In this document: piece by piece, positions 15,613-63,231 of the stretch
How positions within the stretch are numbered: position 1 is the first letter of the stretch
Layout: every line of letters begins with the position of its first letter
Source of the DNA: Metallosphaera hakonensis JCM 8857 = DSM 7519
GTDB taxonomy: Archaea > Thermoproteota > Thermoprotei_A > Sulfolobales > Sulfolobaceae
Length of the DNA: 64,000 nucleotides
Reading direction: 5' to 3'
NCBI RefSeq assembly: GCF_003201675.2
Contig: NZ_CP029287.2
Span: 310,001 to 374,000, forward strand
Position numbers and translations under genes: made by a program
The notes under the pieces: generated by a model
What the model was told of the DNA's origin: nothing
What the model saw: the letters and a program-made list of their open reading frames with translations, nothing else
The model's database searches: none

Positions 15613-15906
15613 CTTCTGAGATGGTATTGAGACGGCACGAAAGCGATGAGATTCCTTGTGTCGATGTCATGAATCGATGTTCGTTGAGCATCATGTCAAC
15701 TAGCCCCCAAGGATTCCGATAGCAATGGTTTCGTTGATGTCACCCTGAATATCCTTGTCCCTATCCTGAGCTTGTCAAGAATACCTAAGAACATGGCTAG
15801 GACTTTCATATCTTAGTGTATAAGAGATCGTTTTCAGGTTACCATCATGGCTCGTGGCCCGTTATCTTTGTAGTCCATTAATTCATGTTAATGGAGATGG
15901 AAATCC
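15613..15906. other. Intergenic region
   Basis: No supported gene. Near 15816-15845 a stretch (GTGTATAAGAGATCG then TTTTCAGGTTACC) resembles half of the adjacent 72-bp hairpin element and could be a decayed fifth copy. Confidence 0.35.
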
Positions 15907-15978
15907 GAGGCTTCCATGTATAGATGTGTAAGAAACGTCATTTCCAGGTAAAACACACAACTATACCCGGTAGCCCCT
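15907..15978 (+). mobile_element. 72-bp hairpin MITE, copy A
   Basis: Matches the copies at 42011-42082 (inverted), 58563-58633 (inverted) and 63160-63231. Ends GAGGCTTCC and GGTAGCCCC are near-inverted repeats, and an inner pair TATAGATGTGT/ACACAACTATA extends the stem. Flanking GGAAATCC (15899-15906) and GGGAATCC (15979-15986) match at 7 of 8 bases, an ageing target duplication. It carries no coding capacity. Confidence 0.7.
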
Positions 15979-16193
15979 GGGAATCCTACGTCTAAACCTT
16001 AACATTGAAGAATAGACGTTGGAGTGGAAATAATCTTAGGAATATGCTAAGAACATAGAGTTCATCGACTACGCCTTCCTTTGGTTACTCGAGACCTGAT
16101 CTCAAGCCCTCCTGATGTTAACTAAGTCGTAAAAGGTAGCCAGATGTATTTGGAGTGTACCGGCTATAATCAAAACTCTCTCATAATCATTTT

Positions 16194-20304: not shown

Positions 20305-20628
20305 TGAGAGATTTTTAGGCAGAGATATATGATCCCTTCACTTTTCTTTAGTTACCCTGGATGAATTTCATATCTGAGGGAATGTCTCTACACCCTTCGG
20401 TGTAAGTGGAGTGAGAGTTACCCTAGTGTTTCTGATAAGTTCTTAGCTAATGACCAGAGGTGCTTATGGTAAATATTTGTTGGAAATACTACCTTAGGAG
20501 GCGGGGAAGCTCATCCTGACTCCTCAGGAAAGTCTAAGCCATTTGACTACAGTCATGAACCGCGAGGGCTCTAGTGGGACTTCCCCCTAAACTTAATATG
20601 GGATTTTTTACTTTTTCTATGGATTACG
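20305..20628. other. Intergenic region with short dispersed repeat
   Basis: No gene. TTTCTGATAAGTTCTTAGC begins a 28-base stretch (20429-20456) that recurs inverted at 58689-58716 with 25 matches. The TATA-like TTTTTTAC near 20600 belongs to the next gene. Confidence 0.4.
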
Positions 20629-40892: not shown

Positions 40893-42010
40893 AATTTGAT
40901 ATCGAATCATCACTAAAAAGCTTAAAGACATCATGACTGAAAAGTTCTCAATTCTACTCTCTAGTCCAAAAGAGATTTGTCATGTTCATACCAATAAAGC
41001 CTGACCACATCTCCTGTTGTTTCTAACTGTATTTAGTAGTGATTAGTTCGTTATTAGAACTATCAACTAGCTTATTAGAGACCTTTCTCTTACATGCCTA
41101 AAACTCTATAGTTCATGAAACAAGATACGGCTTTGACATTCTACCATAAAATTTATGTTGTAATCGTGACCGAAAAATACGAACTTAAAATTACTCTGAT
41201 TCTATAAGAGGCTCAAAATTTTACTACAACTTCTCATTTAGACCTGACTTCCATTATCCCAGACGCAGTTTGATGAGGTGAGAGTTGACCCAATTCTCTT
41301 AGCCTTATTTGCTTACGATTGTTTTTTATTTACAAACCAAAGTTATTCTCACTAAGGCAGTTTTATAGCAGGTTTACACCGTACTCACCCAATACAACAT
41401 ATGCTCGCCTTGGAGCACGATTTCTCTACCTCATGGAATGCCAACCTATCACCTGATTTGGGTTACAAATCCCATATACCTCAGTATACTGAATAGACAA
41501 CTTTATTAGGATCCGATTTAATCATGCAATCTTTTATTTTCTATTGTATAATAATAAATCTGTGATTTAGGGATCTATCAATCTACGTCACTCCCTCTAA
41601 AAAGATATATCGAGAACTGCAACTGATAAGCTTTTACCCGAATTTTCGCCAAAGGTAAAACTAAGTGCAGGGAGACGGTAAAACTCTGAGAGCTTTACCC
41701 TAGGTTTTCCTTTGATGGAGAGAAAGCATTCCTTCCACTCTTAATCGGCACAGACTTCGAGTATGTAACTTCGGGAGCGTTCTCATGCATTCGTCTTACA
41801 TGGTATTTATCTGAGGTATCATGTTGGATCATCTATAATATGCTATAATCCATAAGTAATGACTCATTTGAGGACGTCCTCCCACAGAAAAAGTAAGACT
41901 CAAGGTTTTTAAACTCCTTAAATGGAAAATGGCTTGCTACCATACATGTCAAGTTTCTCGGCTTTGGAAGTAAACATCCACAGGTTACATTCCTTTCATG
42001 ACGTTCCTAG
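40893..42010. other. Long gene-free region
   Basis: About 1.1 kb with no supported gene. At 41773-41812 a solo left end of the IS1-family element is recognisable (GGGAGCGTTCTCATGCATTC). Around 41632-41712 four GTAAAA/TTTTAC(C) motifs cluster (TTTTACC, GGTAAAACT twice, TTTACCC), looking like a binding site, but no gene follows within 500 bases. The rest looks like decayed sequence. Confidence 0.45.
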
Positions 42011-42082
42011 GAGGCTACCGGGTACAGTTGTGTATTTTACCTGAAAATGACGTTTCTTACACATCTATACATGATAGCCTCC
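42011..42082 (-). mobile_element. 72-bp hairpin MITE, copy B
   Basis: GAGGCTACC and GATAGCCTC(C) ends, with inner ACAGTTGTGTA/TACACATCTATA arms, fold into an almost continuous stem with a loop of about 23 bases. A perfect 8-bp direct repeat GTTCCTAG (42003-42010 and 42083-42090) flanks it. It is the best example of the family. Confidence 0.82.
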
Positions 42083-42295
42083 GTTCCTAGATCCTCTGTC
42101 GTGAACATAGTCGAGGAAGTGATTTTCGCTACACTCAATATGCTTAATGTTCGTTATTGAATGAGATTACCACATAATAACCACCCTTTGAATTACCGTT
42201 TGACCCAACATTCAAGGAAACCTCTAAGGGTCCCTTCACCTCAAGGAAGATTGTTACGGGCTCAAGTTTTTTAGTGATATCCCAGAATTTAATTC

Positions 42296-52218: not shown

Positions 52219-53392
52219 GGGAGTGTTCTCATGCAGTCATCTTATTCGATAAGTACCTGTAAAAATATTAATGCGAGGCAGAAATCTCTTCAAGGGCTTT
52301 TGTGGTCCTTACAACGAGTGGACTTGAATACTTGAGGACGCGTGGGATCGAAAAGACTTATGTGCGAGGACCTCGAGGTTCTTTAGGTGTATGCCATGAA
52401 CCTCGTAGCCCTCGCACAACTTATACTTCTCGTTCTAAGAAATTTAAACCTTAAGCCCCGAAAGCACAGACCAGAGGAAATCGCCTTCGCCCTCGCGGCT
52501 TACGTGATGGGAGTGCAGGTCACCAAGCTCAAGATACCGCCCTCCACTTTGTATTATTACATCAAGAAACTCGGGATCAAGAGGAGGAAGGACGCGAGGC
52601 CGAGATGTCCGTCCTGCAACTCGGACCGCGTGGTCAGGAACGGTTCGTCAAGAGGGAAGAGCAAGTACAGGTGTAAGGTCTGCGGGAGGACCTTTTACGG
52701 AACTGCGAGTCACAGGATGAGCAGGGAGCAGAGGGAGAGAATCTTGAAGGAGTACACCAACAGGATGAGCTTGAGGGGAATATCCAAGGTTGAGGGAAGG
52801 CCCTTGACCACGGTCTACAGCTTAGTGAAGAGGGCCGGCTTGAAGGCCTACGTTAACCTGTTGATCCTGCAAGCCCAATTGAAGGCCTTCAGGGCGAAGT
52901 TCGCGGTTCTAGACGAGAGCTGGACTTACGTACACGTGAGACGCGGTCCTAGACGACAGAACCTCTGGATCTGGAACGCCCTGGTCGACGGAGTTCCCTT
53001 CTTCGTCACCGGCGACAGGGACTACAACACCTTCCGCTTCCTCTGGAGTTCTCTTCCCAAGTGCGAGGTCCACTACACCGACGCCTACTCAATCTATCAA
53101 GTCCTAGATCACCACGTCGTGGGCAAGAAGTACACCCACACCGCGGAGAGTTACAACTCGTTCTGTAGGTCGCACTTAGCTCGGCTAGCCAGGGACACGA
53201 AGGCCGTCAACAGGAGCAGAGGGATGACGGACTACAGCCTGGCCCTGTTGAACGTCATGAACCCGCATGTTTTCTCGGACGAGGAGACTCCCTTGAACCT
53301 GGCCTATTTGAGGGGAGTACAGCATATTAGAGAACATCTGATATAATTTTACAGGTAGTTATCGAATAAGATGACTGCATGAGAACACTCCC
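52219..53392 (+). mobile_element. Complete IS1-family insertion sequence, 1174 bp (ISC1173-like size)
   Basis: Ends GGGAGTGTTCTCATGCAGTC and its inverse, with inverted repeats extending about 45 bp (one or two mismatches). A perfect 8-bp target duplication AGTTAGCC flanks it (52211-52218 and 53393-53400), typical of IS1-family movement. One intact transposase gene lies inside. The intact ends and duplication imply a recent insertion. The length equals that of the known Sulfolobus element ISC1173 to within a base, but identity was not tested. Confidence 0.93.
52387..53346 (+). CDS. IS1-family transposase
   Basis: A 319-residue single-frame transposase. The N-terminal part has a zinc finger (CPSCNSDRVV then CKVCGRTF) and helix-turn-helix (LRGISKVEGRPLTTVYSLVK). 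The catalytic part has VLDESWTYVHVRRGPRRQN, HYTDAYSIYQVL and GKKYTHTAESYNSFCRSHLA, which match the IS1 DDE layout (DExW, TDxxxxY, HxxExxNxxxR). The GTG at 52387 or ATG at 52396 may be used. There is no frameshift site, unlike bacterial IS1. Confidence 0.93.
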   Translation: MYAMNLVALAQLILLVLRNLNLKPRKHRPEEIAFALAAYVMGVQVTKLKIPPSTLYYYIKKLGIKRRKDARPRCPSCNSDRVVRNGSSRGKSKYRCKVCGRTFYGTASHRMSREQRERILKEYTNRMSLRGISKVEGRPLTTVYSLVKRAGLKAYVNLLILQAQLKAFRAKFAVLDESWTYVHVRRGPRRQNLWIWNALVDGVPFFVTGDRDYNTFRFLWSSLPKCEVHYTDAYSIYQVLDHHVVGKKYTHTAESYNSFCRSHLARLARDTKAVNRSRGMTDYSLALLNVMNPHVFSDEETPLNLAYLRGVQHIREHLI

Positions 53393-53400
53393 AGTTAGCC

Positions 53401-53942
53401 CAAAACTCGAATTTAGATTAACGTCTGGTTTTGAATTAAAGAGAAACCTAACACTTTGGAACATTGAAGAGTTTCACAAGGTGAATTTCTTTGTAATGTG
53501 CCATTGTGATTGAGAGCTCATATGCGAGTCTTATAGCTCGTAATACCGACGCAGTGGCTTTGCCTTACATAGTAATGATGATACCACCTTTTCCTTCATT
53601 AAATCTCCCTCACGACAAATAGTTACACAAACTCAGAGTTTCGTGCCAAGACTCCTGAGATGAGGGTCGATGTCAGACGAATCGCACTAGAGTTGATTCT
53701 CCTCGGCGACGCGATCTGAGAATCTCAAGAAAAGAGAGATGGGCCTTAATCCCTTAGGTAAATTAGATGAGGAGGAACTTTTCAATAGGTCTTTTTTACA
53801 ATTTTATGGAGAAGAAATTATTTTGGACTATCTGATGAGCGTATCGTCGTTAGTATTTCCAGTAAGTATTCGACCTAGACATCTCTTGTTCCAAGCTGAG
53901 AACTTGTCGGAAACACTAGTGTACCCCTAACTCCCATGGTTT
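53401..53942. other. Intergenic region
   Basis: About 540 bases after the IS element. A 63-codon frame at 53739-53930 has no supporting signal and is not called. No repeat recognised before 53943. Confidence 0.4.
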
Positions 53943-58537: not shown

Positions 58538-58562
58538 GATGAGGAAATATGCTTTCGACGGC

Positions 58563-58633
58563 GGGCCTACCGGGAATAGATGTGTATTTCGCCTGAAAAT
58601 CACGTTTCTTACACATCTATATAGGAAAGCTTC
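58563..58633 (-). mobile_element. 71-bp hairpin MITE, copy C
   Basis: Inner arms ATAGATGTGTA and TACACATCTAT are a perfect 11-bp inverted repeat. A perfect 9-bp direct repeat TTCGACGGC (58554-58562 and 58634-58642) flanks it. The loop (TTCGCCTGAAAATCACG) is close to that of the other copies. Confidence 0.8.
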
Positions 58634-58818
58634 TTCGACGGCAGGACGTTTATGCCAAGTTATCCTTTTTGGGAAATTGTTCTTGTGATGGTCACTCGCT
58701 AAGAACTTATTAGAAATGCTACCTCACTGGGTTTGAAGATCTCATATCCAGGCTCTTTTCGTTGAAGATAATCTCCATGAAGAGGCTTCGCTTGATGGAA
58801 TATAGTGTATTGGTGTAA

Positions 58819-58964: not shown

Positions 58965-58978
58965 AATAAGCTTGAGAA

Positions 58979-59180
58979 TGTCCGGAATGTAAAAAATTCA
59001 ATTTATATTGTGGAGAATATTCGTGTTTTTATCATTTTTCTACCCATAGTTCGAATCATCTATCTCGGGGAACGGAGTCTAACGATAGACTGTTTACAGG
59101 TTGTCCAGATACAACCTTATACCTAGAATAATCCCTGTTTCCATTTCAATATTTTCGCCGAAATATTTGCATTCCGGACA
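58979..59180 (-). mobile_element. 202-bp TGTCCGGAATG inverted-repeat element, copy 2
   Basis: Perfect 11-bp terminal repeats, identical to those at 29322-29523, and the same length of 202 bp. It lies in the opposite orientation. Two nested insert families lie directly to its left, so 58563-59180 is an insertion hot spot. Confidence 0.78.
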
Positions 59181-59258
59181 CTGTAGCGTCATCTGGGATT
59201 TTCTCCCGCTCCTAGGAAAAGCTTTTAACTTATAAAACATTGATTATATACGATAAAG

Positions 59259-63159: not shown

Positions 63160-63231
63160 GGGGCTTCCCTATATAGATTGTGTAGATAACGTCATTTTCA
63201 GGTGAAATATACAACTGTACCTGATAACCCC
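63160..63231 (+). mobile_element. 72-bp hairpin MITE, copy D
   Basis: GGGGCTTCC at the left and GATAACCCC at the right, with inner TATAGATTGTGTA/TATACAACTGTA arms and the shared loop ACGTCATTTTCAGGTGA. The length is again 72 bp. No target duplication remains. Confidence 0.68.

Follow-up and report, generated by a model that had tools for sequence, protein, structure and literature searches.

MITEs are a well known phenomenon, and in one review they range in size from 50 to 500 bp (PMC10969869). Prokaryotic MITEs (PMC10969869), such as SM1-SM4, SM3A (164 bp) and SMN1 (320 bp) of Sulfolobus (PMC3718332), are non-autonomous and contain no ORF. Their terminal inverted repeats are those of an IS resident in the genome, and they are flanked by target duplications, occur between genes in tens of copies and depend on the IS transposase acting in trans; in Sulfolobus the partner is ISC1733 for SMN1 and ISC1058 for SM3A (PMC3718332). 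Another very short example is MITEPsy1 of Pseudomonas syringae (100 bp), which matches the ends of a larger IS, has a target duplication of 4 bp and for which transposition has been experimentally demonstrated (PMC3189936). Members of the IS256 family are characterized by 8-bp duplications and by terminal repeats of roughly 31 bp with TGTAAA as subterminal motif; their proposed mode of movement is a copy-out/paste-in pathway via double-stranded circles (PMC7780238).

The mini-element which we describe here, from Metallosphaera hakonensis, resembles these prokaryotic MITEs in the general features named for them, although in its case the action of an IS transposase in trans is inferred. Unlike the Sulfolobus examples, it has a partner of the IS256 family. 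With IS256-family members such as ISCth4 and IS256 (PMC7780238) it has in common the transposase family (that of its partner IS), the 8-bp type of duplication, a TGTAAA-like motif and terminal repeats of about 30 bp, but it is devoid of a transposase and its size is approximately that of two terminal repeats and a short spacer. Like MITEPsy1, it is very short and matches the ends of a larger IS, whereas the IS partner and the length of the target duplication are different. An earlier note on this DNA had placed its size far below that of typical MITEs. This is partly right: a length of 71 bp is small, and near the lower end of the prokaryotic range, while still falling inside it. It is therefore an unusually small but otherwise ordinary MITE. 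The reading that we favor, with a probability of about 0.94, is that it consists of hardly more than two IS256-family IS ends placed back to back and would be mobilized in trans by the IS256 transposase.

The window analysed is a stretch of 64,000 nucleotides (positions 310001-374000) of a 2,544,115-bp single-contig genome. All four copies previously claimed in it are present at re-measured bounds; the proposed unit length of 72 bp applies only to the fourth, the other three being 71 bp long. Copy 1 (window 15907..15977, + strand) lies between TGGAAATCC (15898..15906, +) and TGGGAATCC (15978..15986, +), which agree at 8 of 9 positions. Copy 2 (42011..42081, - strand), the locus on which the earlier note had focused, is flanked on both sides by the perfect 9-bp duplication CTAGGAACG (42082..42090 and 42002..42010, both -), of which 8 bp had been recognized. 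Copy 3 (58563..58633, -) is similarly bordered by the perfect 9-bp duplication GCCGTCGAA (58634..58642 and 58554..58562, both -), while copy 4 (63160..63231, +) is 72 bp long, older and without a recognisable target duplication. A 40-bp core pattern with at most 3 mismatches gives 3 matches in the window where 0.00 are expected and, since this excess is accompanied by 88 copies genome-wide, a chance origin of the fourfold repeat can be excluded.

In the complete genome, blastn scored 40 copies of the mini-element. A covariance-model search, proposed in the earlier note and carried out with a model derived from 23 copies, gave 97 matches with E<=0.001, some of which are second-strand duplicates of near-palindromic copies. 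Exclusion of these both-strand doubles left about 88 distinct copies for examination in the 2.54-Mb genome, and further copies occur in another genus. The young copies have the consensus GAGGCTTCCATGTATAGATGTGTAAGAAACGTCATTTTCAGGTAAAATACACAACTGTACCCGGTAGCCCC. It includes terminal inverted repeats, GRGGCT(A/T)CC ... GGTAGCCCC, and an inner inverted repeat, TGTGTA/TACACA. Exactly 71 bp is the length of 59 of the 88 copies. Identity to the consensus decreases continuously from 0.96 to about 0.66, as expected of a family with a long history of multiplication and decay, and four copies at four sites are mutually identical, each with its own duplication. Placement is mainly intergenic: of the 33 copies tested, those with long flanks, 31 are free of overlap with any ORF of at least 100 aa. 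The element therefore has the properties used to define MITEs, being multicopy, short (50-500 bp) and without a transposase gene. It was absent from the phage, plasmid and viral-contig collections searched, and in scans of a genome-contig collection the mini-element pattern gave no match and the transposase of the partner IS no confirmed relative.

That this is a moving unit, as the earlier note had claimed, is strongly supported by target duplications and paralogous empty sites, as well as by the IS with the same ends and the copies in another genus described below. Recognisable target duplications flank 27 of the 88 copies, compared to a mean of 0.98 and a maximum of 3 when right flanks were shuffled among copies; perfect duplications of 8-9 bp occur at 17 copies (shuffled-flank mean 0.2). 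Empty sites were sought by joining the flanks of a copy, removing one duplication and matching the junction sequence elsewhere in the genome. Several copies were in this way found to lie within other repeats, whose uninterrupted copies represent paralogous empty sites. Thus, when the element and one 8-bp duplication are removed from the copy at 958269, the junction gives gap-free alignments of 70-76 bp to uninterrupted repeats at several places, including window 20419-20491 (89% identity). For the copy at 1961349, 140 columns align without a gap at the junction, whereas those at 481869 and 2087801 differ by an indel of 2 bp located at the junction or close to it. Comparison with sister strains had also been suggested. 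No orthologous empty site could be shown in the genus because the genes flanking two of the window copies are not conserved there: the gene adjoining copy 3 has no homologue in the genus and only a short C-terminal stretch of that adjoining copy 2 is common. A 20-kb stretch compared within the genus gave only few matches, located away from the mini-element copies.

Nine copies share their flanks. These were rejected as independent insertions since they represent a single insertion, one mini-element carried in a multiplied 226-bp MITE with the ends TAGTACTTCCG...CGGAAATACTA (G000:C1:469289-469514 and eight others, among L024, L027, L029, L010 and L117-L121). The 226-bp MITE derives, by internal deletion, from an IS of 1049 bp with matching ends, which we take from its size and ends to be of the IS630 type (like ISC1048). 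It yielded no empty site because the mini-element is located at its internal deletion breakpoint. The window also contains other repeated sequences. A 68-bp repeat (window 20424-20491), with a related copy at about 53848-53923 and several copies in the genome, has ends (TAGTGTTTC...GGAAATACTA) which resemble those of the IS630/ISC1048 type; its copy in the G000:958269 region is interrupted by a 71-bp element. An IS1-family IS (window 52219-53394; ORF 52387-53346, PF03400, E=1.1e-10) has inverted repeats of about 50 bp and recurs elsewhere in the genome in about nine complete or almost complete copies. Finally, a repeat of ~220 bp (window 58973-59192) with 21-bp inverted arms (TGTCCGGAATGTAAAAAATTC) and more than 20 genome copies is probably another MITE.

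The earlier note had proposed a search for a full-length IS sharing the ends of the mini-element. When the genome was scanned for these two ends, inward-facing pairs were found 1308-1322 bp apart at five places (L059-L063), corresponding to five copies of a 1.3-kb element whose transposase belongs to the IS256 family (PF00872, E=5.7e-64; NF033543, E=3.5e-70). The ends of these copies have the form GGGGCTACC(GGG/AGT)TATAG(A/T)T; in full, the first reads GGGGCTACCGGGTATAG(A/T)TGTGTAAGAAA and the second GGGGCTACCAGTTATAGTTGTGG. Of 24 bases at the right end of the mini-element, 23 are the same as in the first IS end, and the left end agrees with the IS end at 25 of 29; an older subfamily (L028) has a right end with 22 bases identical to those of the second IS end. 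At the position of the subterminal motif of IS256-family terminal repeats, the mini-element shows TGTAAG. One of the IS copies (L063) has an 8-bp target duplication, GACCTGCT; none was seen at the other four. None of the five includes an intact transposase gene, small indels or frameshifts being present relative to open homologues of 416 aa in another genome, G012. The family may be stranded in this genome, or these may be assembly errors. As the five copies are damaged in the assembly, the present source of enzyme for the mini-element is in doubt. The indels, of 2-4 nt, occur at several sites shared by the five copies, in different combinations and often at GC-containing motifs, and reflect either a systematic assembly error or decay accompanied by recombination between the copies.

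The survey covered 31 genomes from the family and 214 from the order. Among these, the mini-element was confidently identified only in the present genome and in G020, a member of another genus (g8). One G020 copy is 100% identical to the consensus and is flanked by a perfect 9-bp duplication, CCTGGGTTA, which indicates a transfer of the mini-element between genera; a second copy is older. Only a small fragment of the transposase, 53% identical, is found in G020, a point against the favored reading. A weak match in G008 (28-66, E=4.6e-4) was not counted as a copy. A third genus (G026, L082) also carries the IS256 element with the same ends. In G012 (loci L080, L091, L098 and L104) the transposase of this IS256 has 33 matches, the best with 88% aa identity and several with open frames of 414-416 aa, and the IS ends are nearly the same; no 71-bp element was detected in that genome. 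A separate 71-bp family, with about 29 matches, is found in the sister species G007. Of the 25 copies examined, 18 are exactly 71 bp long and 13 carry target duplications (null mean 0.77). G007 also possesses its own IS256, with a transposase about 66% identical to that of the present genome, and the right end of its mini-element matches the end of this IS at 23 of 24 bases, but only 20 of the 24 agree with the IS of the present genome. An inner stretch, GTGAAATACACAAC, is common to the two mini-element families and absent from the IS ends compared. Judged by eye, the two families may go back to one ancestral mini-element, the ends of which would since have followed those of each resident IS.

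Several other explanations were considered. The element might be a MITE moved by a different DDE transposase, for example that of a second IS256 group in this genome (L109-L113; 41% aa identity to the first), which includes several open frames of 407-409 aa while the five proposed partners are damaged. The ends of this group, GGGGGTACCCC / GGAGAGTACCCG, are however different, those of the mini-element match the first group, and the sister species pairs its mini-element with its own first-group IS. The second group was rejected as partner on the basis of its ends, and we regard mobilization by another DDE transposase as very improbable. Slightly less probable still is a gene for a structured small RNA, or a regulatory RNA hairpin, present in many copies and maintained by selection for base pairing. 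A single-strand hairpin is indeed predicted (DNA z-scores of -4.5 and -2.9 for two variants) and the loop, TTTTCAGGTGAAATACACA, is still recognisable in old copies. The earlier note had seen, in a stem that keeps pairing while its arms differ between copies, a hint of selection for structure or of hairpin-based mobility. With stem partners shuffled among copies as the null, the 69 distinct copies show no excess of pairing (79.1% of cells against 79.6% shuffled) or of covariation (a score of 0.142 against 0.146 shuffled, reached by 416 of 500 shuffles), so that this suggestion is not borne out. The stem pair of columns 7 and 68 is unpaired in 62 of the 69 copies. The arm differences cited as a structural sign (ACAACTGTA, ACATCTAT) correspond instead to natural IS-end variants, the right-arm variants ACAACTATA and ACATCTATA both being present at IS ends. 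No match was obtained in an Rfam scan of the window. An RNA function is also at odds with a stem made of IS terminal repeats, with the target duplications and with the decay of most copies. On these alignments the hairpin is accounted for by two terminal inverted repeats and selection at the RNA level need not be invoked.

Least probable of all, in our estimation, is a palindrome of the REP/REPIN type moved by an HUH (RAYT/Y1) transposase via single-stranded hairpins. The mini-element would fit such a description as a short, imperfect palindrome present in many copies, mainly between genes. Its clear 8-9 bp target duplications contradict it, as REP/REPIN elements are not known to produce any, and the partner that has been found is a DDE system, with ends and a transposase of the IS256 type.

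For the MITE composed of two IS256 ends, a simple pathway can be proposed. The transposase would bind both ends, through the terminal GRGGCTWCC box and the subterminal TGTGTA motif. The 71-bp unit would then be copied or cut out by the IS256 transposase and inserted through a staggered cut of 8-9 bp, the hairpin being a likely by-product of the mutually inverted ends. A circle of the IS256 type formed from the mini-element would measure only about 79 bp (71 bp and an 8-bp spacer) and would be mechanically demanding. It is conceivable, if rather unlikely, that a unit of two IS256 terminal repeats is moved efficiently, either because tiny circles are tolerated or because archaeal IS256 elements use another route. 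If so, the near-fixed length of 71 bp in the two sister families would reflect the minimum geometry of the transpososome.

These data provide, for an archaeal genus, a complete pair of MITE and IS256 partner, and a second pair in a sister species, where the mini-element and its own IS have diverged together. With two natural pairs, recognition of the ends by IS256 transposases becomes testable by partner swap. Since 71 bp is close to the smallest unit able to hold two IS256 ends, the mini-element also offers a natural test of the minimal substrate for copy-out/paste-in transposition, and the family, in addition, shows movement between genera.
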